From Odobenus rosmarus divergens (taxonomy: Eukaryota; Chordata; Mammalia; Carnivora; Odobenidae): a stretch of 64,000 nucleotides of DNA. Under the pieces are notes generated by a model. The model was not told the DNA's origin. It saw only the letters and a list, made by a program, of their open reading frames with translations, and ran no database searches. Location of the stretch: positions 587,907-651,906 of the forward strand of contig NW_004450287.1 of assembly GCF_000321225.1 (NCBI RefSeq). Direction: 5' to 3'. The translations under genes were made by a program, and so were the position numbers. Within the stretch, counting starts at the first letter, position 1; each line of letters starts with the position of its first letter. Shown in pieces: positions 10,527-57,887 of this stretch.

Positions 10527-10770
10527 GGATTTGAATAAAAACTTTAAAAAATAAATAAATAAATAAAATACAAAGGATTTCCAATTAAAGCAAAACTGTT
10601 ATCTGCTTTATTTTTCAATATGTTCCTGTCTTATAAGGAAACTATTTATATTCTGAATTTTTAAAAATATTTTTTATGGAAGGTTTATTCAAAAAAGAAA
10701 AGCTGACTTCCGAGTAGTAGCTTGGTTATCACTTTTAATGATGTGTTTATATTAAAGACAATTCATAGTC

Positions 10771-11129
10771 TGTATTAGTCTGTTTGGACAGCTGTAACAG
10801 AATACCACACACTAGGTGGCTTATAAACAACAGAAAATTATTTCTTATAGTTCTGGAGGCTAGAAGTCCAAAATCAAGGTGCCAGCATGGTCACATTCTA
10901 GAGAGAGCCCTCTTCCTGGTTCATACACCATGCCTTCTTGCTGTGACCCCACATGGTGGTAGGGATGAGGTAATCTCTCCGGAGCCCCTTTTATAGGAGT
11001 GCTGATTCCATTCATAAAAGCTCTGCCCTCATGACATCACTTCCCAAAGATCCCATCTCCTAATACTGTCACCATTGGGGGGTTAGGATTGAACATATGA
11101 ATTTTGGGGGAGACATTCAGACTATAGCA
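10771..11129 (-). repeat. MaLR-type solo LTR (MST/MLT1-like)
   Basis: The + strand reads as the reverse complement of a MaLR LTR. It begins 'TGTATTAGTCTGTTTGGAC', contains 'GTGGCTTATAAACAACAG' and 'ACATATGAATTTTGGGGG', and ends 'ACTATAGCA'. It is old and diverged, with no internal retroviral region next to it, so a solitary LTR is the simplest reading. Confidence 0.85.
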
Positions 11130-17100: not shown

Positions 17101-17559
17101 ATCTTTACAAATGCTGTCCATTGGTCAGTAACCTTTACATTGAAAATATATTAAAATGGTCTCTGTGTACCTGTCTCTCTCATTAGTCTATAAGTTCCTA
17201 GTTACAGAATCTACGCCTTATACATTTTTGTAGTATGGCATAGGATAGTGTCTTGGAAATTTTGTCTCTGTTTTTAACCTGTTTACATTTAGATAAGACC
17301 TAACATGAAATTTCTATAGCCAAATTCAAGGATGAGTTTGAGTTAACATTATTTGAAATGAAGGCAGTTTGTGTCTGTCAAATACTAAAGAGAGCATCTA
17401 GCTCTGGTACCAGAAATACTTGTATGAACTTTTGAGCTTTAAAAATATATTCTTTTATATGACAAAGACAGCATTGTAAATTAGTGAGGCAAAGATGGAC
17501 ATTTTTAAATGGCATTGGAATAAAGGATAGCCATTTGGAAAAAGAAAAGTGAATTTTCA
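11130..17559. other. Intergenic, AT-rich, scattered MIR copies
   Basis: No gene seen. MIR-like segments lie at about 12548-12745 (+, 'CTACTATGTGCCAGGCCC' and 'GGAAACCAAGACACAGAG') and 15525-15738 (-, 'TTTGGAATCAGACCTACG' ... 'GAGGATTAAAT'). A probable L2 end lies near 17170-17260. A CT/CA low-complexity tract is at about 12243-12320. Small open frames (13078-13425 minus, 14596-14973 minus) lack recognisable domains. Confidence 0.5.
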
Positions 17560-18620
17560 TTTCACACTGACTCCAAGGAGATCCGAGATCTAAAATATAA
17601 AAATTAAATTAAATGAAGGAAATTATACAATAGAGAAATAAAATAAGGGTAAATTTCTTTATAACTTGGAAGCTGGAAAAATATCCCTGATTCACAATTT
17701 AAAAACAATAAAAGGAATAATAAGTTTGACTAAACTAAAATTTTTAAAAAACTTGTATAAGAAAAAGTATCATAAACAAAGACAAAGGACAAACTAAGAA
17801 AAGATATTTATAATTAATATCATAGACAAAAGAATGATATATTTATGACATGAAGAGATCCTAAAAATTGAGGCAAAAAACCAACAACAACCAGATAGAA
17901 ACATGGGCAACCAGTGAATAAATAATAAACAGAAGAATGAACCATATAACAAGATGCTCAACGTCAACGATACATGAAAATTTTATTAAGATATCACTTC
18001 CAATTGGCAAACATCCAAAATTTTGACAATATATATTTTATTTTGTTGGAACAACCCCATGGGAGGTAAGAATACAAAGAGTTAACAGAGATAAAGGAGG
18101 ATGTGACAGTAACTAAAAGAACTTCTCATGCATTTTCTTTTTAACTCAACAATTCCACTTCTAAGTATCTGTCAAGAAATGGCAAAATTATGAAATATTT
18201 TATGTACAAAGTTATTCATTGCAAAATTATTTTTAAAAACCAGGGCGCCTGGGTGACTCACTCAGGTAAGCACCTGGCTCTTGGTTTTGGCTCAGGGGCA
18301 TGATCTCAGAATCCTGGGATCCAGCCCAGAGGAGCTCCATGCTCAATGGGGAGTCTGCTTGAGATTCTCCCCTCTCTGTCTGCACCTCCCCCCTCTCTAA
18401 AATAAGTAAATAAATCTTTAAAACATTTATTTTTAAAACAAAAAGTGGAAACAACTCAAATGCTGATTAAATTAATTATGGTAAATTAACTAGTATATAA
18501 TCATAAAAAGGACTGAGGAAGATTGCTATACACTGATATAAAATGATCTCCAAAATATATAAAGTGGAAAAAATGCAAAAGAGCATATATATTATGCTAT
18601 CTTTTGTATAAGAAAAGAAT
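17560..18620 (+). repeat. Old L1 3' segment (+), interrupted by a SINE
   Basis: Sense-strand decayed L1 ORF2/3' region, with the typical L1 landmarks 'AACAATTCCACTTCTAAGTATC' (shortened) and 'GTGGAAACAACTCAAATG' flanking the SINE at 18243. It is highly diverged and has no intact frame. Confidence 0.75.
18243..18424 (+). repeat. CAN SINE (older subfamily)
   Basis: Head 'GGGCGCCTGGGTGACTCA', internal 'GGGGAGTCTGCTTGAGATTC', tail 'AAATAAATCTTT'. Flanking duplication: ATTATTTTTAAAAAC before and ATTTATTTTTAAAAC after. It is inserted into the old L1 above. Confidence 0.93.
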
Positions 18621-21307: not shown

Positions 21308-21530
21308 GGGATGCCTGGGTAGCTCAGTGGATTGGGCTCTCATTCTTGATTTCGACTCAGGTCATGATCTCAGGGTTTGAGATGGAGCCCTGCATTGGGC
21401 TCCAAGTTCAGTGGGGAGTCTGCTGGAGATTCTCTCTCTCTCCTTCCCCATGTCCCCATGTCCCTCCCCCCCACCCACTCACTTGCACTTTCTCTTTATC
21501 AATAAATAAATCTTTAAAAAAAATAATAAT
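21308..21530 (+). repeat. CAN SINE
   Basis: Head 'GGGATGCCTGGGTAGCTCAG', C-rich middle, and tail 'AATAAATAAATCTTTAAAAA'. An imperfect flanking duplication (TAAAAATCAAATTTA before, TAAAAATCCATATTTA after) marks the boundaries. No further CAN SINE is seen until 41130. Confidence 0.92.
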
Positions 21531-21599
21531 AAATAAGTAAAAATCCATATTTACAGGAAAGTCCCAAGAACTGTTAACTCCTCTATGCCCTTCACCTAC

Positions 21600-23200
21600 A
21601 TTCACTAATTGTTAACATTTTACACATTTGCTTTATATCACCCTCCTTTCTCTCTCTCTTTATATATATTATACATACTCATAAAATAATAAAATAATTA
21701 TTATTAATAATGCTATACCATTTGAAAGTTGGTTACAGATATTATGACCCTTTATTTTTATTTTTTTATTTTTGATCCTTTATTTTTGAATACTCCCATG
21801 TTTATCTTTCAAGAATATATTCTCTTACATAAACTCGGTACAGTCATCAAATTCATAAAAATCAACATTGATATAATGTCACAATATAATATACTGTAAT
21901 GCTATCACATACATCCTTTATATAATTTTGTTCTTGATCTAGAATCCATTCCAGAATCATCCATTGCAATTAGTTGTTATGTCTTTTTAATAGTTACTCA
22001 TCTGTCTTTGCCTTTATGACATTGATATTTTTTAAGAATACAAGTGAGTTGAGTTACACACTCTCCATCAATATGGGCTTTTTGATGTTTTGTCACAATT
22101 AATTTTTGTATGTTTGGCAGGAATGCCAAGTAACTGATGTTATGTCCTCCGTGTACCACATCTAGAGGCACATGATGTTTCTTTATCACATTACTAGTGA
22201 TGTTAACTTCAATTGCTTGGCTCAGTTGGCTTCCACAAGGTTTTGAGGTTCCATGTAAAATCATCAATATTTCCTCTGTAATTAAAAAGTAATCTGTGAG
22301 GAAATACTCTGAGACAGTTTAATTATCTCTTCCCCGTCAAACTTTTACCTAGTAGTTTTAGCATTTATTAATGATTCTTGCCTAAGTCAGTGATCACTAT
22401 GGCAGTTGCAGAATGGTGATTTTTTTCCAACTCTATCTTTCCTTCTACATTTATTGTATAAAATTCGATAAAGAAGAGCTTTTCCTTCTCACCCATTTAT
22501 TTATTTATCATCAGTAGAGACCCAGGAATTCTATTTTGTATAATGAATTCTTAGCCATTGCTGCTATATTTTTATTAATACTTAGATTATCCCAGATTTG
22601 GCCATTAAGATTCCTTCAAGCTGGCTCCTGTGCCCTTTTTATAATATCCATTAGTTTTTAGAACTTCCTCCCTTTTTGACTCAATAACGTGCTTCAGACT
22701 CATCTTGAATTTTCTGTCCCAGCCCTGGAATCAGCCAAGTCTCTAAGCTATTCAGAAACGATTACATGGTTTGTTTAATTCTACCTAGAGTGTTTGTTCT
22801 CATATCAATAAGTTCATGTCTCCTCAATATACACTCTCAAAGAATCTTTTTCCTATGTAATTAGATGGCTTTCTCATGCTAACTACATAAAAATGTGGTA
22901 TATACTTTGACAAGATCATCCTGCCCTAGCTCCTTTTAGTGGAGAATGGTATTTCAAAACCGAACTCTGGGTGCTAGCTGTTCTCATTATACCAGAGTAT
23001 CATTGCTTCTAAGTGCACTGAGTCGATAAAACTAAGACGCACAGACTTTTATTATACATACGGTATATTTTAAATCATGAATTAAGGAATGCATATATAT
23101 TTTTATACTGTGAATTTTTCTATGTTTAATTCTAATCTAATACCACAATATTCTTTTCCACCTTCCCAAATTTCTTGTTTGTGTCTCTCTCCTGCCACAG
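21600..23200. repeat. Ancient L1 (L1M-type) non-coding region
   Basis: The order of landmarks resembles a widespread ancient mammalian L1 3' region: 'TTAACATTTTACACATTTGC', 'TTGCAATTAGTTGTTATGTC', 'GTGATGTTAACTTCAATTGC', 'CCCAGCCCTGGAATCAGCCA' and 'GTGGAGAATGGTATTTCAAA'. It is heavily diverged, and I leave the orientation open. Confidence 0.65.
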
Positions 23201-26200
23201 AGGCATGCCGTCTGGCTCCCAGCAGTAAGATTACATTGATTCAGTTTCTCATTCGTAGGATGTATATACAAAATGATTCCAGAATTTCCACACCCATACT
23301 ATACAAACAAGAAACAATTAAGAAATGTTCAAGGTTCAAGGTTTTGTTTTTTGGGTTTGGGGGTAGTTGTTTTGAATTTGGGGCGAGGGTTTGCAGTTTT
23401 GTTGTCTTTAAACTGAGGGTATAGAATCAAAGCACTGTGTTTAAAAGTCATGGTATTTAAAATGAGAACAGTTAATATTTATGGAAGAATTTAATCCTCC
23501 TTATCTTAAAGTTCTACCCTAGCCTTAATTATGATATAATGTACATTACAAAATCCCCATGAATTCTCATTTTCTTACTGACCAACATTATCCTTACCAC
23601 ATTCTGATCTTATCAGGTGTTTTCAAAACCTAGTATCATATACAATCATATCCAACAGGTGCAAACTTTATTTCATAAAGAGATACCAGTGAACACACCC
23701 CTATATAATACATAACCAACAGACTGGTTATATAGGAAAATACACCAATGAAAGTCAGTTTTAGAACTGTACTGAAAACAGGGTCATTTCAAGTGTTTCA
23801 AACCACTAATGCTGTTCTTAAATTCCAGAACATATAATCCATGGATTTATACACCCCAGTGCAAGTGTACTAAGGATTTTACAATCTAGATATCAATTTC
23901 CCCTGGAGATCTAATTCAGGAGCAGGAAATTTACAGAAATAAAACGACAACTGCAACAGACAATTGCCATAGCTACTAACATTGCCATTTGTGGAATTTC
24001 TTATCTGGTCCTGATCCTCTAAAAAGTATTAACTCAAACACATCTAATGTATATGTTTCAATTGAACTCTAGGCCTCCCACAATTACTGCTGTTACATAT
24101 GTATCAAAGGCCTTGCGATCACCCATAGAAGGTCAAAAATGGAAAGGGACAGGTCACTAATCATGCAAATTATAATTCAACTACTTTGTCATAAATCAAT
24201 TCAGACCATCACATCATTTGTTTAAAACTACCAAAAATGTTCTTTGCAATTAGACCAATTACAATTAGGAAGCAACTGGTACCAGCTGATTATCTTTATG
24301 CCCTCTCAATACACACCCATGGGACTATTTTTCCTCTATAATTAGATGGGCCTTCCATGCTAATGACCTCAAAATATGACTTACACTTTGAGAAGATCAT
24401 ACTGCCTTTCTGAGGATTCAAGACAAATCCCTCTGCATCTCATATTTTTGGTGAGAAACCTGAGTAGGTAACTTATCAGAAAAGATCTAAGACACCAGAT
24501 ACCATGAAAATGTCGTCCTCGGATTAAAATGTGTGATCCCCAATTTACAACTGACTATAACTACATGACAAATAAAAGAGCTTACACTTTAGAAGTCCAC
24601 TCAACGTGCAAAAATTTGTTGGCTAGAATAGTTCCAGCTAATAAAATTGTCCCTGACTATTTACAGGCCAACCAAATCCTGAGGCAATACAATAACTAAT
24701 GCTGGAGAAACACTTCAGGAAAAGTGGAATCGTTTATTTGGCAGGGCGGGGGGTGGGGGTGAAGGGTAGAAAAACGGCACATAGTTTTTAAGGTTAGCCA
24801 AATTGATCTATGAGACTTATACTCCTGGTTGGTTCTAGGCAAATTAAAAACTAGATACAAAGTGGGATTGCAAATATTTCTTTTAACGTTATGATCATCC
24901 CCATTCATCTTGCCTTTTCTACTGAATCATATGCTTAAAAATTACCCCACCGCCACTCTACCAGCAGGACACTTGCTGATGTTACCACCCTCGAAACAAC
25001 TGAAGCCATGACAGCTCACTTAGCCCACTTTGACCAAAAGGAGGACAGTATAAGAGAGAAATGGTAGTCAGTCTAAGGAGGAGCATTCAGCAAAGTCCAG
25101 CCAAGAGTTCAGCAATAGCCATACCCAGAAACAAAACACATCATTTTCAGTCACAAGAGTTGTCAGAATACTCGTAAATAACTACAGTTGCTTTCCCTGA
25201 TAAATGCCTGTTTGCTTCAAGGAATATTTTCCCCCTGATAAGTTTTAACTAATAATTAAATACATGATGCTTGAGCTCAAGACTAATGTTACTGTCAAAT
25301 TGAATTTTTGATGAAATAGCTTTTTAAAAATCCTACCTACATCTATTAATTCAATTCCATTTGATAATAAAGCAGAACAGGGGTGAGGGAAGTTCAGAGG
25401 GTCAGAGAATGAGTTAATAAATAGTTAATGGAAAAATATCCCTGGAAGGCAGTATAATAAAACGCTTTTGCTTTTTCCTTCCCTAATTCTTCCTCCTCCT
25501 CCTGGTTGTGACTTAAAATAAACAAAGTTCTTAGGCAACTACTATTAACAGTGTGTATAGTGCAATGCTCATAGTGGGACTTCTGTTTAAAAAATAAAAT
25601 GGGGCCTATGGGATAAATAGAGTGAGTCATACTTCCCCTAGATTTCTCCTCCAAGCACTTCAGTATTGTCTCCATTTTGTTCCCACTCAAGTGTTGTAAG
25701 CTAAAATGCTGAGTGGAATCCCAAGGGGAATCAACTTCCCAGCTTCAGTGGTGTCCAACTAATGTCCTCCTTGGACTCAAGCTGTAAACCAACTCACAGA
25801 GAGAAGGAGAGAGTCATGGTAGTTGTTGCCAAGATAGCAAACAGTTTTTCAACATACCAATTTAATGTAAAGATTCAACTTATTAAATTTATATTAAGTC
25901 CTTCTTATGATTAGAGCAAATTCATTTTCAGAAAATTTCAATTATAAAACCATCAATAGGACTTACTAATTTCAATAGGTCATTTTGCTTCCGGATAAAT
26001 TATACTAATTACTAATGTAGAAGTCCCATTTGAACATAAAGAAAACCCTAGGTACAAAAAAAAAATGCTTTAACTAAGCATTCTTCATCTTTAAATAACT
26101 GATCTAAGAAGAAATAATAAGATATGTTCATTCACCATTGCAGAAAACAACTCTACCACGTTGGAAAATTCCTGAACAATATAGATTTCATTATTAATAA

Positions 26201-28605
26201 GGAACACTAACTCTCCCTCCTCAGAATGATTTTCCTTTTAAATAAACCATATTGGACAATGCTATTACAGGACATTTGATTCTTTTTACTTTTCATTAAT
26301 CTACAAGGGTTTAAATATAGCAAAATAGTCAAAATGTTAGTCAATTAACTATTTTTTCATCTTACTATTTTAGATGCATTTCTAGATATCTTCAGCTATA
26401 ACTGCATTCCCAACCACCTAAAAAAAATTCTATGGCCTTTTTTTTCCCCCCACAAACTTCCTTTGTAATCAACTGAGGTAAGACCAAAACAATTAATTCA
26501 ACTCTACCAATATTTTTCATATCTTACTAACTTTTAATAATTACTTTAGGATTCTTTCCCAGACACTTGATTATTAATAGCAGAAAATCATATGACTACA
26601 TTAGATTACATCAGCTAATCCTCCAAAGCAACTGTTCCTCCCCAGTTTGGAAAGAAATCAACACTTCAGGCCCCCTCACAGAAATAATACACAATACACT
26701 GTAACCCACAGTAATTAAAATCTCTGTTAGCACATCTTTGACTTCCAAAACTTCCTCTTACTGCTGTTAAAGATTTTAAAAAGTTAACAAGGGTCTACTC
26801 ATGTGAGTTCTATCCACCTATGTCTTTTAGGGAATGAGCAGCATACAAATAAAGAAACAATAGTAAACAGCTTATTCACTGCTCCCAACATGAGCTAAGC
26901 AAAGAAAGGTGGTTGAAAGTATCACTATGGTTTCATCCCACGTTCATTCCTTTTGAATTATGTTCAACAGTGTTTTATTATTGTTGTTATTAGTTCACAA
27001 GCATTTACTGACTTTCAGCCATGTGAATCATGAAGTCAAGCAATAAAAAGGATATAAAGATATACACTACTCAGTCCCTACCCTTAAAAACTTTAAATGT
27101 ATTGGAAACCATAAACATAGTATCTATAATTTATTAGGTATCCCAAGTTTTTTAGGCAGTTTATACATTATAACCCCTCAGTCTACCCCAAATCCTAGAA
27201 GGTAGGTAACTGTTGGCCTTATTTTACTTTTTATAGACCTAGTACCTATTCTTTAATTTGGGTATCCACCCATCCTTATCAAAACCACTTGCTTCAGGGA
27301 AAGCTGATTCTTATCTCCAGACTGCTGGGGCCTACTCTACTTCTATGTAGTTAGATGAATAAAAAGAAAAAAAGAAAAAAAAAACACCTTTTATTATCAG
27401 AGCCAGTTTGGTTGTTTTTTTAATACTTTGCAATTAAACACGCTGATACACAAGATAATATTTGTCCTCCAAAATTAATGGCATTTTCTTAAAGAAGTGG
27501 GGGTTACATTTTCTTTCACTGTGTATTTTTTAGACATTAGGGAGAAGGTTGGCTGATTTCATACTATAAAAGCCCGAAATTTCACTAAATAAATATTTGT
27601 TGGGTGAATGAATTAGCTGAACAAATGATGAATAAACTATTGAATATAAAATAATTCTCTGTTCCTGTTTGCCCCTACCCTCCCAGGCCAAGATCCATGA
27701 TTGAAATTGTTATGTTAAAAGAAAAGAAAGAACAATAATTGATTGTAATTCAGCTCTTTGAATTTATTTAGTTTTTCTTCACCACTTGATGACAACCTGC
27801 TATCTCTATATTCTATAGTAAAACATATTAACAACCTACCCTCTCCCCTTCTTGACATTACTTGAAAATCACGCAGAGCTGAGGTTAGGTGACTAGTGCC
27901 CAGAAAGTCAGAAATAGAAAAGAGACACACATCTGACACTTGCCCCTATGGATACTGACCTCCTTCTCATATTCCTATCCATTAGTAAGGCATATTCACC
28001 ATAGAATGAGAGATTAGACAGTAGAATGTGTGTTTTGTTTTGTTTAATTAGAAGTGCAAAAGATCTTATTCAACTGCTACTGATAATTGTTAAAGACATT
28101 AATGCCATGACTTAGGGATCTTGTTCTCCAAGGAAGTTAAAGAATATGTAAAGATGATACATAGCCTAAGGGGAAAGGGGGTGGTGAGGAGAAGAGGAAT
28201 ACTCTTAAGAGGAATACTCTAAAGAAGGAATACTCTAAAGAGTCACACAGAATGCTGAAGATCCTTCTTCTCATAACGCGTAACTACTCCGAGAAGGAAT
28301 TAGCTCTCACATTTAAAGTGGGAAATGACCATAGAAAGGTAGAAAATGGTTATTTATTTCCAGATCTTGCCAACTTCCATACTGCTCTATTGCTGTGTCA
28401 TAGTCACAGACCTGAACAATGACAGGAAAAATAATTTCTAAATCTTCCTGTTCAAGAAGTAATTTTATTGATCTCCACTTTATCTTTTATTTTTCCTATG
28501 ACTCAGCAGGTTAGAATTGCTCTAGTTCCAGTACTTTCTATCACTCAGCAAGATGTCCATGGGGTGTAAATGCCTTACAAGTTAATAGGAGGTGAAGAAA
28601 TTTAT
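23201..28605. other. Intergenic upstream of STMN2, mostly unique
   Basis: AT-rich, with no CAN SINE and no gene seen. There is a MIR/L2-like fragment near 27125-27235. A short imperfect tandem repeat at about 28196-28245 carries three copies of a 'GGAATACTCT(T/A)AAGA' unit. This stretch may contain distal regulatory DNA of STMN2, but nothing in it can be assigned from sequence alone. Confidence 0.45.
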
Positions 28606-28626
28606 TTCAGCACCAAGGAGAGTGCC
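28606..28626 (+). promoter_or_regulatory. STMN2: RE1/NRSE silencer of STMN2 (REST binding site)
   Basis: The 21 bases match the REST/NRSF recognition element: left half TTCAGCACC, right half GGAGAGTGCC, with only AA between them. It differs from the RE1 consensus I know at three positions (11, 15 and 18). From the rat SCG10 element as I recall it, it differs only at position 11. It sits 1667 bp upstream of the start codon, close to the position described for the SCG10 silencer. Known role: REST binds here in non-neuronal cells and represses SCG10, restricting expression to neurons. Orthology is inferred from motif plus position. Confidence 0.93.
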
Positions 28627-28944
28627 TGTTATTTTCAAATGGTTTTATGAGTTCAAAACTGCGTTATTCATGGGCTAGAAAGAAATTTTGAAATGTTATT
28701 TAATAGAAAGCTGCTAAGAATTTATTTCATCCATTCGCATAATCCCAATCATTTCTATAAAATTTAAAAATTGCCAACATTTTGTATATGTTCATGATTT
28801 CAACAATGTGCTATTCTTTTAGCTTTCAAACGCAAGGAATTAGCAATCCTTTGCTTTTTTTTCAAATGTCAAAAACCACAGTTTCTGAATGGATCTAGAA
28901 TGGAGGAAGGCTCAGTGAAACCACAGAAGTGTTAAATTAACAGA

Positions 28945-29072
28945 GATTAAAATCTCCATGAGAACAAGGTCTAAAATCTTTTTCACCCGTTGTGTCCTCA
29001 AAGCTTGGCACATGATAAATGCTCAATGAATATTTATGTGAGTCTTCTGAGAAAGAATGAATTAATGAATGA
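28945..29072 (+). repeat. L2 3' end fragment
   Basis: The order 'CTCCATGAGAACAAGGTC' ... 'GGCACATGATAAATGCTC' ... 'AATGAATATTTATG' ... 'GAATTAATGAATGA' follows the conserved 3' end of L2 elements. It lies between the RE1 site and the promoter. Confidence 0.65.
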
Positions 29073-29889
29073 TGTTCATTAAGTCAACCAAAATGAATTA
29101 GTGAATATCTTCTCTCTAATGAAAGGTCACTTTTTTGCATCTGATCTGGGAGATCCTCACACACCACATTGCTCTCAGCCTGAAACCTGAAAACATCTTT
29201 CTTTGGCCTATTATCAATGGAGTCTCTGGATCTCTGAAAAATCATGCTCCAGATCACACCTTTCATCTCCACAAAGCTTTCAGTATAAAGGTTTCTCCTT
29301 GAGACTTGCAAAAGTCACTGAGGTTTCAATCTCCGTAATCTTACATCTCCGAGGCAGAATGGCATTATCCACCTATGGTTCCTCCAATGCTCAAACCAAT
29401 GGTTCTGCCCTGTAACCAGATGGACAAGACACAGACACAGGAAGCTGACTCTCATCCTCCTCCATAAGGTCCCCAGGTAGACCATAACTATTTGTCCCTA
29501 TTCCCAACAGCCCAGACAGCTCCTTCCTTCTGTGCCAAGAGTAGAAAACACCAGGCCTCACTCTGTTGAGAGACCTTCAAGAGTCCAAGACATCTGAGTC
29601 CAACTGTGCTAAGAGACAAAGGGTAATAATGCATTTCTGTTTCAGGCTACCACCATAGCCAGACATGGGGTCACCCTGGGAGACCAGAAACTACCAAAAC
29701 AGGGCCAAAGGTGAAAGAGAAAACATGAACAAGTAAAACCACAATGTTTAAACAGATGTTTCCAATAGTCAGCAAGTTGTGAAGACTTCTCAAAGCTCTA
29801 AATCCTTTTTCCTTTTTATGTCTATTTGTGCAATAAAACATGTGTGAACAAAGTCAATCCTGGCTCCCAGGTAGACACAGTCCAGTTCT

Positions 29890-30272
29890 TAGCTCTTAGG
29901 AGGCTTCTGGGCTAAGCCTCCACTCTACTTGGACTGTACTATCAGGCCCCCAAAACGGGGGGGAGCTGCCAGGGAAGGACTGATTTCCATTTCAAACTGC
30001 ATTCTGGTACTTTGTACTCCAGCACCATTGGCCGATCAATATTTAATGCTTGGAGATTCTGACTCTGCGGGAGTCATGTCAGGGGACCTTGGGAGCCAAT
30101 CTGCTTGAGCTTCTGAGTGATAATTATTCATGGGCTCCTGCCTCTTGCTCTTTCTCTCGCACGGTCCCACTCTGCAGACTCAGTGCCTTATTCAGTCTTC
30201 TCTCTCGCTCTCTCCGCTGCTGTAGCTGGACCCTTCGCCTTCGCCACCGCTCAGCATCTGCACATCCCTACA
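29890..30272 (+). promoter_or_regulatory. STMN2: STMN2 promoter-proximal block and 5' UTR
   Basis: This block closely resembles the 5' part of human STMN2 mRNA as I remember it, from about the 'AGCTCTTAGGAGGCTTC' segment to the start codon. The 5' end is therefore uncertain: transcription could begin near 29890 or further downstream. Visible candidates are an inverted CCAAT box (ATTGG, 30027-30031) followed by an AT-rich TATA-like stretch (ATATTTAA, about 30039-30046), and a CT-rich stretch at 30196-30219 that could serve as an initiator. If the long leader is used, it contains upstream ATGs at 30046, 30076 and 30130. I cannot fix the start site without transcript data. Confidence 0.75.
30130..30225 (+). 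other. Upstream open reading frame in the 5' UTR
   Basis: An ATG at 30130 opens a 31-codon frame that ends at TAG 30223-30225, 47 bases before the STMN2 start codon. The predicted peptide is Leu- and Ser-rich with no known domain. A shorter frame (ATG 30046 to TGA 30106-30108) lies further upstream. Both matter only if transcription starts upstream of them. Coding function is unproven; a translation-damping role would be inference. Confidence 0.4.
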
Positions 30273-30291
30273 ATGGCTAAAACAGCAATGG
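30273..30291 (+). CDS. STMN2: Stathmin-2 (SCG10), coding part of exon 1
   Basis: Encodes MAKTAM plus the first base of codon 7, followed by the donor GTAAGG at 30292. Stathmin-2 is a neuronal phosphoprotein that binds tubulin dimers, promotes microtubule dynamics, and is needed for axon growth and repair. The start codon is preceded by CCCTACA; the next ATG is codon 6. The six residues followed by a phase-1 splice are the known STMN2 start. Splicing to 55232 completes codon 7 as GCC (Ala). The intron starts in a region that becomes strongly GC-rich about 500 bp further on. Only 19 coding bases lie in this exon, so it was identified from the joined product, not from an open frame. Confidence 0.96.
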
Positions 30292-30779
30292 GTAAGGCAT
30301 CGCGCCTCGTTCTCCCTCGGCTCGACCTGGAGCCCACCTCTCACCTTCTCTCTTAGAGCTTTGAAGGCATTCGGAAATATTTTATAAAGAAAAAGACGTT
30401 AATGATAAAACAGAAACCGGGAAGGACGAAGGCAGTTCTGGGGGTTTGGGAAGGGCAAAGAGAGGGTCCCTGGAAATCTAAAACTAAAATTTTCTTTTGA
30501 AAGGTAGAAGCAGGTAAGTTGCCCTCCCATGGGAAGAGAATTTGTTCTGTTTCCATGTTTAAAATTAGGGCTCAATCGTTGGGGGAGGGAGCTACCTTTA
30601 CTGTTTGCCTTAAATGGGGTTAAGGGACATTTTGGAAAGTGCTTTGTAACATCCTTTATTTCTTCTCTAGTTAAGAAAAAGAAAATGGGGAAGAGGAGAG
30701 GGAGGTGGCGGAAAGAAAAAAGAAAAATGCAAAGTCAAATCGGTCCCTCCTAGGTTGTTTGAAAGATGGGTGGAGACGG

Positions 30780-32600
30780 GGGGGTGGGAGCGGGTGGAGA
30801 ACGGGGCAAATTTTATGGTATTGTCTCGTCGGAAAAACCGCTAGTCCTGGGGCGCGGTGCGGGGAGGTTAGGGCGGGGGATGGGGTGCTACGCTCCTTTG
30901 TTTTAGGGAAAGGGAGGGGAAGGAGAAAGGAAGTCGGGGAGGGCATGGAGGGCGCGGGTGGGCAGCTGCAGGGGCGGGGAAGCGCGCGGTGGGGAGGGGT
31001 GGAGGGACAGCGGTTTCGCAGGCGCTGGGGTGGGGTTTCTTTGTGTGAGGACGAGCGGTCCCAGGGGGAGGCACCTGCAGCGCTGGGCGCACAATGCGGA
31101 CCGCCCCACCCTGTGCGAAGCCGCGCTGGCGCCCTCACTCCTCCCCCCTGCCGGGTGCAGCAGCTTAAGCCGAAAGAGGGCCGGGTGGGGAGCGCAGCGC
31201 GACACCCAGGAGCCCAGCCCTGGGGGGGTGGGGCGGACAGCAGCGCCACGCCCCGCGCTTGTCGCTCCTGACTCCGACTCGGCTTCCGAATGAGACCTGA
31301 CCATAGCCCCTGCCATCCCCACCCTGGCCTCATTGTTCTGTTTTACGGAGAGAAGGAAAAAAGTCGGTTAGCCTTTTTCTTTTTCAAAACCCACATTGCA
31401 TAGGGTGACTAGACATTGACGCGGATAAAGGCTTCTTAGAGCTCATTGATCGTTTTGGGTAAAAGCTTTGGGAACCTAGATAAGTGTAGATATAATAATA
31501 CAGATAAAAAAGAGGACAACTTCTTAAACTGAGCCACGTGAAATACCCGTCTTCTAGGTCAAACAGGGCCAAATAATGGCAATTTTCATAGGCTCAACCT
31601 ATATATCAGGGAAACAGTTGAGACACAGAGATCCCCAGCCGGTTGTGCGCCTCTAAGTGCCCCATGGTTCCAGCGTTCGGTGGCCCCCGGGGTGGACAGG
31701 CAAGGAGGGGCCCGATGTCTGGTGACTGCTGGAAACACCACCTCCCCCGGGAGCCGGTGCGGGATGCGGAGAAGCGAAAAAGCGATGGACAGGGCTCGCT
31801 CTGCACAGCTCCGCCCTGCCCCACCCTTTCCGCGGTGCTGAGAAGACCTCGGGCTCCGAGGCGTGGCGAAGAAACAGAGTTGGGGAGGGGCGGTTGAATG
31901 GTCTGCAGTCCTAGAGCCCCTTTTTTTTTCAGCCCTGCAATCCGGAACAGCCCAGACACCCCCTCGCTTGGCGCAGACACCCGGTGTTGCTCTGAGAGCT
32001 GGCGCCGAGCCCCTCCCAGCCAAGAGGGTGTCTCTGCAGAAAAGCTGGCTCGAGCCCCGCCCGGCCATACAAAGGCGCGGCCCCACCCCAGCCGGCGGCA
32101 AGACCGCAGAGGTGACCCCTTCCCAGTGGTGCGGGGAGGGTTTTCCTCTTCTTGCCCTCCCACAGCCCGCGGAGTTCAGGCTACTTTCCCCCAGCTGAAG
32201 CCCTCGGCCCGAGCCGGGTTCTCTATCATTTCCCGGGACGTAGACCCTTTGGATAGTCTCTCCGGAAGGGACCCTCGCTAATCGAGCAAGGCGCGGCTCG
32301 GCCCCACCCCTCCCAGCGGCTGCTGGGACCAGGCAGCCGCTGGCCGGGTGGGGGCGCACTTGGCGAGCCGGCGCGTGGAGCGCTGCCAGCCCTGCAGAGC
32401 CCAGCGCCGCGCCCTGTGCTCCCCTCCCCCGAGCTGGGCGCTCGCCCCCGCGGGTGCAGCCGGGGAGACGGGTTTCTGCGCAGTGTCCTGAGCTACCCCC
32501 GCTTCTCACAGTTCGCGATTCACCCGCAAGTCCAGAAAGGTTCTCAGAATGAGGGATGGGGCGGTCTCGCTCTGCGTTCTGCATCCCCACCGAGAGGTTT
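30780..32600. promoter_or_regulatory. CpG-rich island in 5' part of intron 1
   Basis: The stretch changes abruptly from the AT-rich surroundings to GC-rich sequence dense in CG dinucleotides and GC boxes (GGGCGGGG type, for example near 30871 and 30971). There is a quieter gap around 31330-31600. It begins about 500 bp after exon 1, so the STMN2 start itself lies at its edge. It contains long overlapping open frames on both strands, an ordinary effect of GC richness. It could act as a promoter or enhancer, or as a start site for an alternative or antisense transcript. The sequence alone does not show which. Confidence 0.8.
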
Positions 32601-35317
32601 CTGCTGCAGGAGGGTGGCTACAAACTCATCATTATCAGTATTATTTCAAATTATTATTATTATTACTACTTCATGACTCAATGGCCTTATTTGTTCAAAA
32701 GGTTTGAATGATTGAATTTGATTAAGGATTATTAACCCTTGTTGCACTCACTTTTTTTCCTTCTACTCTTCCCTTCCTTCTCCCCTACCCCTTAAAAAAA
32801 GAATTTTTTGTCCTGTTGTTCATTTTACATTATAAAGCGAATGTATTTTCAATTCCTGCCTGGATTACATATGTTCTTGTGGGTCGGATATTATGTGCAG
32901 GTGCTTACTAAGGGTAGGGTTTGTGTGCCAAAAATTGCTGGAAAATTCTCCACAGATCATTGTGACTGCAATGGGTAAAATTATGCATATATAATTGAGA
33001 TGTTATGATCTTCACTGTGTATTCCATAAGGTCATATCTATTAATCAATATATATAGGTTATGCACAAATTCTTAACTGTTTCTTTTCTTTCTTTTTTTG
33101 AAACTGTTCTTGCAATTGCTGATTCTTGATACAGTCTCAATCCTGCACAGAAACCTGGATCGTGAAATGGTAGCCACCATCCCATTAATAAAAATCCCAC
33201 CCAAAATATGACAAATGCAAGGGTCCTTTCTGCCATGAGTAAGCTGTATTTGCAAATCATGAAGAGAAGTACAACCTCTACAATACTAAAATAATGGATT
33301 TTGAAATCGTTTCAGTTGCAAAGCATAATCAATTAATCACCAGGGCGGGTGCTTTTTCCTGATTCATTAAACAATTATTCAGCATGATTGTACTAGGTGC
33401 ATATAGTATTCCCCATTATCTATTCTAATGAAGTGGGCACCTTCTAAATGGATATATCAATAACCTGAAGTGGAAAAATGAGAATTTGGTCAGGATTGCA
33501 AGATCAAACTGAAAGAGAAATAGCAGGAGCTTATCAATTAATTATATATATGGTTAATACCAGCTGAGTAAGCTGAGCCTGCAATAAGCACTATGTGACC
33601 CAATGTAGCCCAAATACATTTATACATGATGGTATAAATTAGTAAACCTGGTGGTGTTTATCTACACATTAAAATTCTCTGAAAGTATATTTTAAAATAA
33701 TAAATAAGATTGAATGGTTTTTAACATTAAAGTCTGGAATTTTTTTTCAGTCACAATTTGCAATGGTTTTGTGAAGTGACCTACAGATTTGTAGTCAATT
33801 ATTCTATCCTAAGGAGGAGGGGATTATTTTTATTGTTAGAACGATTGCCTCTGCTCTTAGTCATTAACATTTTTAGCAGGATTTTATTTGTTGTACTAAA
33901 AACACATTTACTTACTTTGGGGATTTTTAAAATTATTAATGGATAGATTGTGGAATAAGCATTCGGCCATTTGGGCCAAGCTTGTTCTCTGTGATGAAAA
34001 GGCTGCAAGAGGCTACATTTTGCCAGATTCCTGAGTGCCTGTCAGTCCTTTCAGAGTGCATAAAGCTGATTCACGCAATAAAATAGTTTTCCACCCTACA
34101 GTGTAGGATCAAAATAGTTACTTAATTCTGTGAATATCTAGTAGTTGCTATCATCCAGAATTTCAAGTTAAATCTGTACAGTTAAAAATGAAATGGGAGA
34201 TGAATCAATCACATATTTAATTGAGCATTTTTGTTATTAATGAATCCAGACCATCTTAAGGAAAATTCCTGATTTTATCAGTCACCACTGTTTTTTACTC
34301 CAACTGAACAGGACTGACTATATGCCGCATTCCACCTCAGGAGCTCCTTGCTCACAAGGCTGGATGACCCTGGCCCTGAGCAGGTGGCTACCTGCTCTGG
34401 GTGTGGCCACTCCCAAGCTGCTGAAACCTCATTCCAGCTCACACCAATTTCCTATTTGTTTCTTGGAGAAACACACACTATACTGTTGTCACAGGATCTG
34501 TGACCTTATATGAAAAATGCAAGAAATTTGCCACATAAGAAGAAAATACCAAATTAGCTGATGACCCAGATGTTTCCAGAACTGAGGCTGGTTCTCTTTC
34601 CTGGTTCTCTCAATTGGAAAACCTTAGAGTCCACATTACCTTTCACCCCACTAGAGGGCAATCTAGTTCTCTAAAGAAATAGGTGATTTTTTTTTTTTTT
34701 TAACCCAGTTTCAAATACTATTTAATAAAAATTTTTTTTTAGTCTGGAACATTCAATTGCTTACTCAATAAATTAATGCCATGCTTTACCCTACTGGATA
34801 AAAAGGGTTTTTGCACTTTTTCAAGGAGACTGACAAAATGAGTGGAAATGGGTGTTAACCCTGGTTAGTCATTCTCTTACGATTTTACTTTCTAGTTTTA
34901 TTACATTGCTATTATAATATTATTTATGTTACTTTTGGGAGTTTGTAGTGGATGAATGGTAGAAGATGGCCAGTAGTAATAGCAAAATTATTTAGGAAGA
35001 GAATGTTTTAATGTTTAAATAAAGGAATAAATTAAACAAAAATATAGTTTACTTATTCATTTATTTAAAATGTGCTGAAGATGTTGGGGACATACCCAAA
35101 TGTCAGTGTCCACCTTCAGGGAGCTTGCAGGCTAGCAGTTAAAACGTAGATACAAAGTGATACTGAGGAGGGAGTACCAAAAACAAGCATAAACTTAATT
35201 TTTAGGATCATCAAAAGTAGATTTTTTCTATGTTTGCATTGGCAGAGATTGTTTTTCTCTTATGTTTCACGTAACTATAATCCATCTATAAAATATTTAA
35301 TAGTTTCATATTACTGT
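32601..35317 (+). other. Intron 1 unique AT-rich segment
   Basis: Nothing recognisable as a repeat or exon in most of this stretch. It contains many TAAT/ATTA cores, for example at 33330-33420 and 33530-33560. The absence of SINE or L1 remnants is compatible with conserved regulatory DNA, but that is untested. Near 35060-35165 there is an old-repeat-like segment. Confidence 0.4.
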
Positions 35318-35465
35318 GCTCCTCAAACTTTAATGTGCATATGAATTATCTGTGATTTACATTAAAATGCAAATTCTGATACAGTAGGTCTGGTGGAGGC
35401 CAGACATTCTGCATTCCTAACAAACTCCCAGATCATGCTGATTCTAACCACGGAATATATCAGTT
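35318..35465 (+). repeat. MER5-like hAT DNA transposon fragment
   Basis: 'CCTCAAACTTTAATGTGCAT' ... 'TCTGATACAGTAGGTCTGG' ... 'GCATTCCTAACAAACTCCCA' ... 'ATGCTGATTCTAACCA' follows the order of MER5A-type elements. It ends about 200 bp before the cryptic-exon acceptor. Confidence 0.75.
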
Positions 35466-35669
35466 TTAGAAATAGAGAATTGTGATAGACATGTTCCTCC
35501 CATAATAAGCTTTGGTGTTAGGTCTTAATATTTTCAAATGCATGGCAATCTTTACAAAATATTTCACTTCCCCCTTTGTACTCTTAGGGATTTCATTCCT
35601 CTGGGAGTTATGTGTTCTCTGCCATCACTCTTTCTTAATTAGATTTTTAAAAATATATTCATATTGTAG

Positions 35670-35869
35670 GACTCAGCAGAAGACCTTCAAGAGAAATGTG
35701 GAAAATGAGAATTTGGCTGCGTGTGTGTGTATATGTAAGAAAAATGAATATGGCTTGTGGTACAGTCGAGAAAGATGATAAATCAATATTGCTAGCTTAC
35801 TGTTACTTACAGAACAATGTGCAGAACAAAGAGTTCAACTCACAACCTTTTAGTTATGGGATAATCTAA
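35670..35869 (+). other. STMN2: Candidate STMN2 cryptic exon 2a (TDP-43-regulated in human)
   Basis: From 35670 the sequence matches the human STMN2 cryptic exon as I remember it: GACTCAGCAGAAGACCTTCA against human GACTCGGCAGAAGACCTTCG, then similar sequence through the GU-rich tract and 'GATGATAAATCAATA'. It follows an ATATTGTAG acceptor and lies 5379 bases after exon 1, close to the human spacing as I recall it. In human neurons, loss of TDP-43 lets this exon be spliced to exon 1 and polyadenylated early, which removes full-length stathmin-2. Here the exon 1-fused frame runs 66 codons into the region and stops at TAA 35867-35869, unlike the short human product. The end given is that stop, not a proven exon end. 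Whether it is ever spliced in this species is unknown. Confidence 0.82.
35718..35739 (+). promoter_or_regulatory. STMN2: GU-rich tract, candidate TDP-43 binding site
   Basis: In RNA sense it contains (GU)5 at 35721-35730 followed by AUAUGUAAG. TDP-43 is known to bind UG-rich RNA, and the human cryptic exon carries GU motifs at the equivalent place. In this species the tract is one continuous (GU)5, whereas I recall interrupted motifs in human. Binding is inferred. Confidence 0.7.
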
Positions 35870-38800
35870 AATTTGCCTAATTCCATTTGCCATATAGTTA
35901 ATCCCATTTGCCATATAGATAATTCGCTACAAATACTCCACATACTGCAGAAACTAAAACAGATTGAACAGCACTAAAATTGCCTTTCAACATAGCCCAT
36001 ACTTGTTACTTACCAAATTATTCTAACAGAATTTCTTCCACATGAGAAAATTATTGATAATTTATTGAGTATGACTGCATACTTGAAAACAGATTATGTA
36101 TGTGTTTTCTCCTTACTTAAGCCAATGAAGGACCTCCATTATTCCATACTAACTTTTTAAGAAAGTCAACCTAAAGGAAAAAAAAAAAAACTGGTCTTCG
36201 AAGAATAGCACCAAAAATACCATATGTCAGTGCTCCCATGCAGTAGGGTGAATTACCACATTTCTGGAAATGCTATCCTACAAAATTATACTATACATAA
36301 AATAATCTCAAATTAGAAATACATATCCCAAATAGGGCACTGAAATCATAGTCCTAAATAAAACTGGCCCTAGAGTTGTAGGATATTTTATTAGGCAATG
36401 TGAGGTTGGATTAAGCCTCAACGTTTTCCATTCCTTTGTTGTTGTTGTTATTGTCAATCAACAGTTTTCCTCTGCCACTGTTCTCTTTCAAGATTCATTT
36501 TTCCAGCATAGACATAAATTTTAAAGTATCTATAAGAAATGATTTTTACTGATTGATTTAATCCTTATATGGCATATATAACATGCTAGGCACTAAGCAC
36601 TTTACACATTATTAGTTATATTAATCATCCAATAATCCTAAAAAGTAAGTGCTTCTACAGATGAGGAAACAGAGGCACAGAGGGGTGAAGTGACTTTTAC
36701 CTAAGATCACACAGTTGGATATGGAATTTGAGCCCAGGCCATTTGGTTCCAGAATCTGTCCCTTTAACCAGTACCAGCTACTCTTATAAATGCTCCATGT
36801 CAGAGGTGTTCCCACCATGGCAGTCAAACCTGTGAGACCGCCATCTTGTCTAACGAGGCTGAGATGGTCTTATCCTTTCTTAGCACAGACTCACTTTAAA
36901 GAGAAGATACCTTCAAACTGATGACTACTTTTAATTGCTAACCTGGGGCTTACTAAAATAATTGCTTTGATTTAGGCTTTTGGGGGAACAAGAGCTATGA
37001 GACCTTGGGGGTTGTAATGTATGGCTCACATGGCTGTCTGAAGGCTCAGCTAAGAGAGGAGCAGGGACCTCTGATGTGGACACACCATGATGACCAGTTC
37101 CAGAACGGGAAAAAAAAAAAAATCTTGACTTAATCTAATCAATGTCATCATGGTTATCACATTTTAAAAGGGACCCTTACCTCCTTCCATAGACACTAGA
37201 TAGTTAACTTTAATATTTTGTTTTATAAAATAAATCTAGAACTAAAAGAGATACACCACCCAGGCATCCACATTTAATATAATCATTCGGTATTACTTCA
37301 AGACTCTTCCCCTTATTACCGCAAAAGCAAGCAGACAGGAGGAAGGCTCTGAATCCCTTGTGAAACATTTTTAATTATCTTTTAATAAAGGAATCAGGTC
37401 CTGTCATTTGTCAAGGAGACATTTGCAGTAGTAAAACCTGTGTTTATATAACCCATTTTTATTAGCCATGATTAAAGATAACATTTTGTGTACATTTATT
37501 CTCACAAAACACTTTTATGTGAATATAAAGGTTAATTAATGCATTTCGGCAATCATTTTGCTAGTCATCTGGAAATATAGCTCCTCTAGGAATTGTACTT
37601 AAGAGAAGCAGCCATACATTATACTACAAAACCGTAACAAATATTTTAAGATTTTTCTCATTTGTAATTTTGTCGACCTCCAGTTTATAATATTTAGTAC
37701 TTGGAAAAATTGCAAAATTCAAAAAATTTGACCAGAAATAGATAATTAACAGTTTTTGTATAGTACATTAAAAAGAACATTGCCTGGGACTGATTTTTTT
37801 TTAAGCAAAATCATAAAGCAATGCCTGTATGAGTGCTTATTTAGCAGTTATTCTTTTGGAATAATTGTACTTCTGATGTCAGAGTTTGTACACCATCCAC
37901 AGAACAAGTAACTAGTGTAACAATAGATCATCAGAATATCAATCTTTCCACCTTTCAAGTTGCAGGTCTTTATATCAGGATAAAAAGAAAAGGATGAACT
38001 CTATCTAAACCTAGTTCCACAAATACTGGTATGAGAGAGCATTTTAAGCTGTAATTTTTTGTTAGCACTCTATTCCCTCTTTTGGAAGATTTTTTTCAAC
38101 ACCCACCGCCCCACTCCTCCACCCCACCCCTGTGCACCACAGCCCCAGTTTGATTTCCATTCAATAACACCACTCGAAGTGAACCTAATGATAATCTTTC
38201 AGTTCCGGTATCCTAGTAGACAGAAGCTTAACTCACGTGACAAAGCTCAACCTACAATAAACTGACTATTGCAAAACGGACACCAGGAAATCTCATCAAG
38301 ATGTTCCTTGTCACCACTTCCAGACTCCCATGGGAAGGGAGCCTCCTCAGGCAGTTGAGCTGACACGAGTTATCGTAGGCTCCCTTGGAACCTTGCTCCG
38401 AAACATACTGTCCTTAAGACTGCAAAGTTCTTTGGCACGCCCAACAGTAATATCTGTTGTTGTAATTTAAGTCTTGCAGCTTTCTCTGAGAAGCGCCAGT
38501 TAGCATCCTTCTCATCCTTCTCATTATCACCACTCAAACACATGAAAAATCACCAGAGTCAGTTCTAGTCCTTTTGATGCACAGATTACGTGATCCAAAA
38601 CTCCCGTCATTTTAAAAGTTTTTTCATTCTACTTCAGACTCACCTTTTCCTTTTATATTAAAAAGAGAGAAGACAAACAAAGAAGATTGAAAAATATAAA
38701 AGGTTCAAAAGAAATGTTAGATAGCATGATCTATCTATACTGGACCTTGTAGTTCTTAGAAAATATTCACTTCCTCTAGCCTTTTTAATCTTCACATAGT

Positions 38801-39484
38801 CCCTATGATATGGGCATAGTATACATGTTGCTCTGTTTAAAATGAGTCAATTTAAGCTCAAAGAATTTACTCAGTCAAGTTCATATGTGGTAAGCTTCAG
38901 GGCCAGGGCCAGAATATGTGTCTAATAAAGACATATATATATATATATAATATGTATTAGATATATACTCTATATGAATATAATGGTCTAAAATATATAG
39001 TAATAAAAAATAAAACTAATAAAATTTAGCACTTACTCCTGTAAGTCCTATAAGCAAATATGCACACATGAGGGAGGTCGTACACGAAACATATTTGCCT
39101 TTAGTCCAAAGTCATTAGTAGTTAATGACAAGACTTACCAAAGTAAAACAGATACAAGCACCAATTCTCTTCTGAAACTAAGTATCATGAGAACATAAAT
39201 AAACATCATTCTCTTGCTTGGGGGAATTTAGTCTTTTGTAGAAGACAAGATTCTGTACATACAAAAAAGTTGAATGCCAATAGTAGGAGCTTATAACCAT
39301 AACTGGAAGTCTCCACCATTTTAAAAATTTTACTGTACTACCCTACAATATTATAAAACAGTACGTAATGCTACACAAAGAATATCAGTTATGAAGTACT
39401 ACGATCCACCCAGAGGATACAAACTTGAAATATCTAACTAGTCTCCTCTATCAACCAATCCAGCCAGGGAATCCCTTAGTTAAA
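35870..39484 (+). other. Intron 1 after the cryptic exon, with an old MIR
   Basis: Two ACTAAA hexamers (35953-35958 and 35973-35978) are candidate weak poly(A) signals for the cryptic exon. The nearest canonical AATAAA I see is at 36357-36362. 35883-35897 and 35903-35917 form a 20-bp-spaced tandem duplication (CCATTTGCCATATAG). A MIR (+) lies at about 36550-36785 and a fainter one at 38790-38920. An alternating TA tract is at about 38932-38950. The rest is AT-rich with nothing recognised. Confidence 0.55.
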
Positions 39485-39648
39485 ATGTTTCTCAACCTTT
39501 ACTGAGCATCGGTAGCACTCAGCTCCCACCCCCAGAGGTTCTGATTCCCATTCTGTGGCTCTGAGGTGGTCTCAATAACTTGCATTTCTAACAAGCTTCT
39601 AGGGGATGCTGACGCTGCTGGTCCAGAACCACACTTGGATCAAACCTA
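39485..39648 (-). repeat. MER5A-like hAT DNA transposon fragment
   Basis: 'TTTCTCAACCTTTACTGAGC' ... 'CCACCCCCAGAGGTTCTGATT' (shortened) ... 'TTGCATTTCTAACAAGCTTC' ... 'GATGCTGACGCTGCTGGTCC' follows MER5A order. These elements are near-palindromic at the ends, so the strand is tentative. Confidence 0.75.
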
Positions 39649-39837
39649 ATGCTGGTGACCGTTGGGGTACCCGGCACAGTGCAGGGAGCGGCATGGCCCT
39701 CTAGTGTGATTTCCCTCCTTTGACCAGCTCTGCAACTCTGGACTCAAGAGAATAGAGGACTTAAACCCTAACAGCTCTGTCCCTCTCCACATGCTGCCGG
39801 TGTTGCATTGCTGGAAGAGCCCAGGAGCAGGATTCTG

Positions 39838-41045
39838 AAGCTCTGAGCCCTAGTCTTGACTCTCTCAGCTAGCCAACCTTGGTCAGGTCCCTTTCTTTCT
39901 CTGTGCCTCTGTTGTAACATCTGTAAAGTGGCGAGATCTTGCCTTGTCTGTTTCAGAGGGTCCTTTTCAGAACCAAGGAAACAAATGTGAAAATGATTAG
40001 TATCTGTCAAATACTATATAAATGGAACCCTTAGCATTATGTGTCATTGGATAGAATGCCTGGATATTTTACCCATGTACCGATGCACATTTAGTGAATG
40101 AATAACGAGAGAACAAGGAGCACAGAAACTGAGTCATTTGGGTTTTTTTTTTTTTTGAAAAACACTTCCTAAATAATAAATTGAAATAAAATGTTGAGTG
40201 AATTGCTTGGGCAACAGTATCTGATATTTTGGAGGACTTGTGCTTAGGTCCCACCCAAGATTCCTCTTTAAGATTCTTAAATAAATGCCAGTTGAGAAGA
40301 AGCAACTTACTCATGCAGAGTTTAATCTCTTGCAGTCAGTCCCCACTCGTTTTTTTCCCCAACCCAACCTTCTTTAAGGGAAGGGTGGGGAACAGTGGCC
40401 CAAGATTGGCAGCCATCAAGCTAAGAGAATTGCTGAGCGAAGCAGCGGTGCCCTCGCAAACAGAAATACAAAATATGAGAGGGTTGAAAAGGAAAATATA
40501 AACATCCAATAAAATTGTTCTGCTGGTTCCATGTTTGCCCCTTACCAGCACCACCTTGACATTCTCTACCCTCTGAGTCTGCCCCATCGAGCAGCCGTAC
40601 AAGCCCACTTAGACAAAGCAACCCGAGCCCAAATGTTCATGCGTGCTGAAAACTTGGCTTAAAGCTGCTTCCAAAAGTTAAAAACAAAAGGGGAACGCTT
40701 TGTATAATAGAAAAAAGCAACCTGTCATGGAGCTCAAACGAATGCAAAATGTTATGAAAGTTAAAAAGAGTCTATAAATTCCCCCCCGCCGCCAAAAGCT
40801 TAGGTCAGGAACATTCCTATTACATGAAAGAGAGCGCTCTGGCAGATTAAAGGTAGGTTGCATATTAGATGGACATTGTTTTGAAGCCTGCCCCACTACT
40901 CACTATCAGATAATCCTTGAGCAAATTATCGTTTCTATGCCACAATTTTCTCAAATATGAAATGGGGAAAATAATGCCACCGAAATGCCACCTAACATGG
41001 TTGATGAGGCTTAATTAAACAGTTGAATGTTAAGCACTTTGTAAT
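39838..41045 (-). repeat. Two MIR copies (39838-40025 and 40885-41045)
   Basis: Both read as MIR in antisense. The first has 'CTCTCAGCTAGCCAACCTTG' ... 'TCTGTGCCTCTG' ... 'ATCTGTAAAGTGG'. The second has 'CCTTGAGCAAATTATC' ... 'AAATATGAAATGGGGAAAATAATG'. The sequence between them is unique, with a CA- and AT-mixed composition and no gene. Confidence 0.65.
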
Positions 41046-41129
41046 AAAAAAAAATTAATCTCCTTCCAAGACTCCCTAAATAGATGATGAAAACACTAAA
41101 TAAAAGTAATCATTTAAAATAAACATCTA

Positions 41130-54340: not shown

Positions 54341-55231
54341 TTGTTTATACTTTTCCACAAGTTAGTGCACAGTATACCTATCATTTCTCTTCCATTTTTC
54401 TTAATTTATTGATAATCAACAATGGTGAGAAGATTTCACCTCCTTATCTCTATCTGGTCCTCTCTTGTCCTGGTGACAACCAGCACTGATGAGATGCCTT
54501 CCCAGGTTACCTGGGCAGGAGGCCTCTTGACGGAGAGAGGGAAAAATGAAATAGGGAGGGGGAGTGAAGGAGGAGGGAGATCACTCACTGAACTCCTGCA
54601 GTTCCTTGGCAAGGTGGGCACCCAAACCGGGTTCCGCAGAGGAAACGAGAGCCTTATAAGATCTCAGATCTAGCTTTATGGTTGTGGAAAGAAGTTGCAA
54701 CAAGAAAGTGCACTCAGGGATAAAGAGAAAGCAGAAACGTAGATTCTTGGAGGATGCATCCACTTGAGAACATCCTGATGGCTCTCTGCTTGTCCCTGAC
54801 TGAATCCATGGCCACTCAGGCCGAAGCAGCAAAGGACACCTCCTGAATCATACTTATGTCCAGTAGACTTACATACACATGTACTCGGATGGACCTATCT
54901 CTCTGCTAATTTTGTCTGGTTTTGCTTCTTCCATGTCCTTTCTGTCTCTCCTCCCTGTCCTACTGGATCTTAATTTCTCTGACTTTCCTTTCTTTCTCTC
55001 ACTCCCTTTCTCTCACTTTTTATCTAACCAGCTATAATGTGTCATTTCTGTCCTCTGTAATAAGGAATATGCACTTGAGAGTCCTGTTTCAATCTCTCAC
55101 TTATATTTTACGAAGCTGTGTACTTGGCAATATTCATTCTGAAAGAGTCTGTGACTGTTACTTAGATGAAAACAGGCATTAAGAGGAAACTCAGAAAATG
55201 AAAGATACTAATCTCGAGTCTTTTATTTTAG

Positions 55232-55327
55232 CCTACAAGGAAAAAATGAAGGAGCTGTCCATGCTGTCACTGATCTGCTCTTGTTTTTACCCGGAACCTC
55301 GCAACATCAACATCTATACTTATGATG
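55232..55327 (+). CDS. STMN2: Stathmin-2 (SCG10), exon 2
   Basis: Encodes residues 7-38 plus the first base of codon 39: the second half of the split Ala codon, then YKEKMKELSMLSLICSCF through IYTYD. This is the membrane-anchoring N-terminus that sets STMN2 apart from soluble stathmin-1. Cys22 and Cys24 are the known palmitoylation sites that target the protein to Golgi and vesicles in axons and growth cones, and both are present. The acceptor is TTTTATTTTAG with a TACTAAT branch-site match 20-25 bases upstream. The donor is GTGAGT. The exon is 96 bases, phase 1 at both ends. A CT-rich stretch at about 54941-55025 lies upstream. No substitutions are evident against the human protein as I remember it. 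Confidence 0.97.
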
Positions 55328-57714: not shown

Positions 57715-57887
57715 ATATGGAAGTGAAGCAAATCAACAAACGTGCTTCTGGCCAGGCTTTTGAGCTGATCCTGAAGCCACCATCTCCCATCTCAGAAGCC
57801 CCACGAACTTTAGCTTCTCCTAAGAAGAAAGACCTGTCTCTGGAGGAGATCCAGAAAAAACTGGAGGCTGCAGAGGAAAGAAGAAAG
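57715..57887 (+). CDS. STMN2: Stathmin-2 (SCG10), exon 3
   Basis: Encodes the end of codon 39 and residues 40-96: [20 protein letters not shown], then the Pro/Ser-rich regulatory segment, then the start of the long tubulin-binding helix ending EERRK. Known phosphosites are visible: Ser50 (RAS), and the JNK sites Ser62 (PPSP) and Ser73 (LASP). FELILKP is the stathmin-family tubulin-capping motif region. The acceptor is ATTCATTCCTCAG and the donor GTAACT (slightly off GTAAGT). 173 bases, entering in phase 1 and leaving in phase 0. The donor is followed 25 bases later by a long pyrimidine tract. No change against the human protein as I recall it. Residue 97 onward lies beyond this window. Confidence 0.97.

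Follow-up and report, generated by a model that had tools for sequence, protein, structure and literature searches.

The question raised by this locus is whether a carnivore carries a counterpart of the cryptic exon of STMN2 (exon 2a) that is guarded by TDP-43 in human and cripples the gene in ALS. The STMN2 cryptic exon is reported as non-conserved in mouse (PMC8891019, PMC12697360, PMC10336091), TDP-43 control of STMN2 is treated as absent from mouse (PMC10336091), STMN2 is termed a human-specific target (PMC10901740) and mice have been humanised for studying its control (PMC12697360). Among the titles and opening abstract lines listed in literature searches, none compares STMN2 exon 2a with a carnivore, and an earlier notice, for example in a genome-browser figure, is possible. 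With a matching exon start and a GU tract in a carnivore, the age of the element can be put to the test. The original prediction had placed such an element in STMN2 intron 1 of a carnivore, here the walrus, within the stretch of 64,000 nucleotides that is referred to below as the window.

STMN2 was located on the + strand of the 64-kb window, where an assumed human STMN2 protein sequence matched at 55228-55326 (exon 2) and 57699-57887 (exon 3). The coding tail of exon 1, ATGGCTAAAACAGCAATGG, lies at 30273..30291 (+) and is followed by the donor GTAAGG, the last exon letters being ACAGCAATGG and the final exon base 30291. A human STMN2 exon 1 primer printed in PMC8891020 was matched exactly at 30207. 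Exon 2 (55232..55327, +, 96 nt) was delimited by the protein match and by reading the sequence, exon 3 (57715..57887, +) by the protein match with its start taken from the sequence, and the joined exons 1 and 2 translate as MAKTAMAYKEKMKELSMLSL and onward.

Several features of the surrounding sequence were also recorded. Carnivore SINE matches occurred at sixteen places in the window, of which thirteen were best with a musteloid/ursid consensus, two were tied between musteloid/ursid and felid, one was felid and none was canid; with these assumed consensus sequences, the repeats are those of a carnivore, probably of a caniform outside the canids. No SINE match reaching E 1e-5 against the three assumed carnivore consensus sequences was seen in the interval 21442-41129 (about 19.7 kb), which holds exon 1 and the exon 2a counterpart, the second-longest SINE-free interval in the window being about 8.5 kb (9735-18242). 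An antisense open reading frame of 334 aa (31586-32590, -) is located early in STMN2 intron 1 and may be a by-product of composition, as 28001-32000 is the most GC-rich 4-kb piece of the window (0.469).

The candidate exon start was placed at 35670 by the boundary between ATATTGTAG and GACTCAGCAGAAGACC, which stand directly side by side at 35661-35685. This position is 5379 bases past the end of exon 1 (30291) and within STMN2 intron 1, exactly the distance that had been predicted, and human exon 2a is presumably located about 5.4-5.6 kb past exon 1. As an independent human sequence, the analysis used a 93-nt NanoString probe directed at truncated STMN2 (tSTMN2) and printed in PMC9310392. The probe aligned without gaps at 35678-35736 with 49/59 bases identical, including 37/41 over its first 41 bases, and its last 34 bases, comprising the remaining GU part and a GA repeat, fall outside this alignment. 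The score at the locus was 68 versus a window best of 32 (+) and 42 (-) once the locus had been masked, while the highest score was 34 among 300 shuffled probes on the + strand and 39 among 60 shuffled probes on both strands with slightly different gap costs. The first 41 probe bases alone scored 62 versus 30 and 23 with the locus masked, and the highest of 300 shuffles was 42.

The exon 2a counterpart opens with a conserved segment (35670..35718, +) that is identical to human at 44 of 49 bases; 41 of these human bases are printed in PMC9310392 and the first eight are assumed. The resemblance claimed for the first 30 or so exon bases was upheld at 27/30 identical, again with the first eight compared to assumed human letters. 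Judged by this alignment, the exon start at 35670 is orthologous to the start of human exon 2a, this orthology covering the exon side of the acceptor junction. Since the exon start and the GU tract described below are orthologous in human and a carnivore, they are older than the primate-carnivore split, and to that extent the predicted age of the element stands, its use as an exon remaining a prediction. Neutral human-carnivore sequence is about 70-75% identical. Binomial values for the aligned blocks ranged from 0.00094 to 0.091 and are no proof of constraint because they rest on this assumed neutral identity and on blocks chosen because they aligned. Viral contigs and prokaryote contigs, examined in case a mammalian copy was present as contamination, gave 0 exact matches each, which is uninformative on mammals.

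Further likeness to the human exon, which we take to be 227 nt long with the printed probe inside it at position 9, was found downstream. A second conserved block (35752..35809, +), colinear with the exon start block, shares 49/58 bases with positions 126-183 of the human exon 2a sequence as assumed here; with its leading bases it scored 77 at the locus, and no other place in the window exceeded 28. A possible third block (35942..35961, +) is identical at 18/20 bases to the assumed human sequence around ATTAAA and has ACTAAA at 35953. When the 600-base region was shuffled 1000 times, its score of 30 was attained once; other intron pieces sampled gave at most 23. This third block is less sure than the second, and a cheap-gap alignment of the whole assumed exon put the human end at 35810-35845 rather than at the third block, with ATTAAA absent there too. 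The printed probe is stronger evidence than either of these blocks, since the assumed human letters may not be fully independent of the window, which had been read first. A 21-bp unit in tandem (2.2 copies, 92% match) at 35878-35923 separates the second block from the possible third.

The GU-rich tract GCGTGTGTGTGTATATGTAA (35719..35738, +), a likely TDP-43 site, is located just past the conserved start and contains an alternating GT run at 35721-35730, corresponding to bases 52-61 of the would-be exon. The tract had been predicted as part of the element, and this run proved to be the only alternating GT run of at least 10 nt on the + strand of the 64 kb, where three runs of at least 8 nt were counted in total. 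The run lies in a 20-nt alternating purine-pyrimidine stretch (35718-35737), and the pentamers GTGTG/TGTGT numbered six in the walrus tract versus seven in the human probe. Human exon 2a carries three ugugug motifs over 22 bp according to PMC10766724, and its GU-rich motif is given as 24 bp in PMC10336091. Three separate ugugug motifs were absent from the walrus element, which has the single 10-nt run at 35721-35730. It is plausible that the walrus tract is a TDP-43 site simpler than that of human, and we judge the locus as a whole to be an orthologous site, probably bound by TDP-43, whose downstream half differs from that of human. GT runs were also strand-asymmetric across the window, the - strand having eighteen of at least 8 nt and ten of at least 10 nt versus the three and one of the + strand, which could be a matter of repeat or microsatellite orientation or of avoidance of sense GU runs.

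Splice sites were scored with assumed frequency matrices and ranked among the 4242 AGs and 2951 GTs of the window. The intron end before the cryptic acceptor (35643..35669, +) closes with ATATTGTAG and has its AG at 35668-35669. The acceptor at 35669 is mediocre, with a matrix score of 4.66 that was equalled or bettered by 527/4242 AGs; the STMN2 exon 2 acceptor scored 8.62 (rank 72), and a rival AG ending at 35642, 27 bases upstream, scored 8.13, above the 35669 acceptor. Splicing to the rival AG would give a stop after MAKTAMDF. Acceptor strength by itself is no evidence, and the case therefore rests on the orthology of the exon start. Human cryptic splicing is driven by the acceptor and not by the polyadenylation signal, with TDP-43 acting as a steric block, as described in PMC10336091.

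Human exon 2a carries an in-frame stop and a polyadenylation signal, as stated in PMC8891019. Human exon 1 joined to exon 2a translates as MAKTAMGLGRRPSRER followed by the stop (first eight exon bases assumed, the rest printed). The early in-frame stop is missing in the walrus, where the place of the human UAG is TGG at 35699-35701, and the first in-frame stop if exon 1 joins 35670 is a TAA at 35867..35869 (+), which would yield a 72-aa product. The polyadenylation signal of human exon 2a is taken here to be ATTAAA. Both AATAAA and ATTAAA are absent from 35670 up to 36357, and ATTAAA is absent as far as 36700; the first AATAAA past the acceptor (36357..36362, +), 687 bases from the exon start, is also the only one before 36700. 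In the best ungapped match this human ATTAAA corresponds to the ACTAAA at 35953, and variant hexamers, among them GATAAA at 35777, ACTAAA at 35953 and 35973 and CATAAA at 36296, may provide a weak polyadenylation site. Because the human stop and polyadenylation signal were not found at their places in the walrus, it cannot be concluded that carnivores undergo the splicing failure seen in human; a transcript spliced into the 35670 acceptor would still be diverted, though along a different path.

We give even weight to the proposal, drawn from sequence, that the carnivore DNA starting at 35670, orthologous to the acceptor-side half of human exon 2a, is guarded by TDP-43 and has a differing outcome. 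TDP-43 would most likely bind the GU run and, once bound, would sterically cover the acceptor at 35669 as it does in human. Upon loss of TDP-43, exon 1 would be expected to join 35670 at some level. With neither an early stop nor a nearby AATAAA or ATTAAA, the transcript would run on to a polyadenylation site that is distant or non-canonical, or would exit through a downstream donor and be stopped prematurely in exon 2; by either exit full-length stathmin-2 would be lost from those transcripts. The guarded-orthologue reading draws on the printed-probe orthology with its controls, on the shared intron and similar distance (human distance presumed), on the placement within the element of the sole + strand GT run of at least 10 nt, and on the acceptor being what drives human splicing. 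Counting against it are the mediocre acceptor, the stronger AG 27 bases upstream, the one GU run versus three UGUGUG motifs, the absence of two human exon features and the fact that the human letters past the probe are assumed. More tentatively, and at a confidence that falls short of even, we suggest a wider scheme in which TDP-43 guards STMN2 in carnivores, the acceptor and GU tract being ancestral and lost in mouse, and the death of the transcript is lineage-specific, by early stop and polyadenylation in human and by long read-through or a frameshifting cassette in carnivores.

A substantial possibility, to which we assign roughly a one-third share of our belief, is that only the DNA is conserved, the locus being an inert intronic remnant that was never an exon in carnivores, and that the human exon arose when primates gained the polyadenylation signal and extra GU motifs. 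The mediocre acceptor, the open frame, the 687 bases lacking AATAAA/ATTAAA and the single GU run would all be expected of such a remnant. That run, however, is the only one of 10 nt or more on the sense strand and occupies the place of the human tract, and the exon start at 44/49 identical exceeds the assumed 70-75% neutral level, although this block was selected for aligning.

An improbable variant is a 65-nt cassette exon (35670-35734) ended by the donor-like GTAAGA at 35735..35740 (+), which is preceded by TAT beside the GU tract. Its inclusion would shift the frame, the joined exons giving 33 aa and then a stop at exon 2 bases 16-18, which leaves 78 bases of the 96-nt exon 2, and would lead to nonsense-mediated decay; the assumed human sequence aligns CT where the walrus has the donor GT. 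This donor is ordinary, however, and the cassette is therefore kept as a rival only: its matrix score of 5.86 was equalled or exceeded by 132/2951 GTs in the window (about 0.4 per 200 bases), the donors of STMN2 exons 1, 2 and 3 rank 50, 9 and 37, and its U1 pairing is weak at -4.3 (661/2951 as good) versus -9.7 for the exon 1 donor. A chance resemblance, which had to be considered as the original prediction was made with the human element in mind, is ruled out for practical purposes by the printed-probe score set against the at most 42 reached elsewhere in the window and, with assumed human sequence, by that of the colinear second block.

If TDP-43 guards carnivore STMN2, as the guarded-orthologue reading has it, carnivores would be natural, non-humanised animals for the study of stathmin-2 loss, and dog or ferret neurons are suggested as a natural test. 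The human cryptic-exon primer given in PMC8891020 had no exact match anywhere in the window, and a human assay for truncated STMN2 RNA could therefore miss the carnivore form.

Among known systems, the cryptic exon of UNC13A is similar in being intronic, TDP-43-repressed in human and reported as non-conserved in mouse, but it belongs to another gene, uses a donor as well as an acceptor and is reported as conserved in primates only, as given in PMC8891019. The closest system is human STMN2 exon 2a itself. The human exon has the UAG, the presumed ATTAAA and three UGUGUG motifs, whereas the walrus counterpart is without the UAG and the ATTAAA, has a single GT run and has a 72-aa open frame; the GA-repeat part of the human exon has no match in the walrus counterpart, and the donor-like GTAAGA is a feature of the walrus side. 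The two share the position in intron 1, the exon start, a GU-rich tract within the exon and a colinear downstream block.
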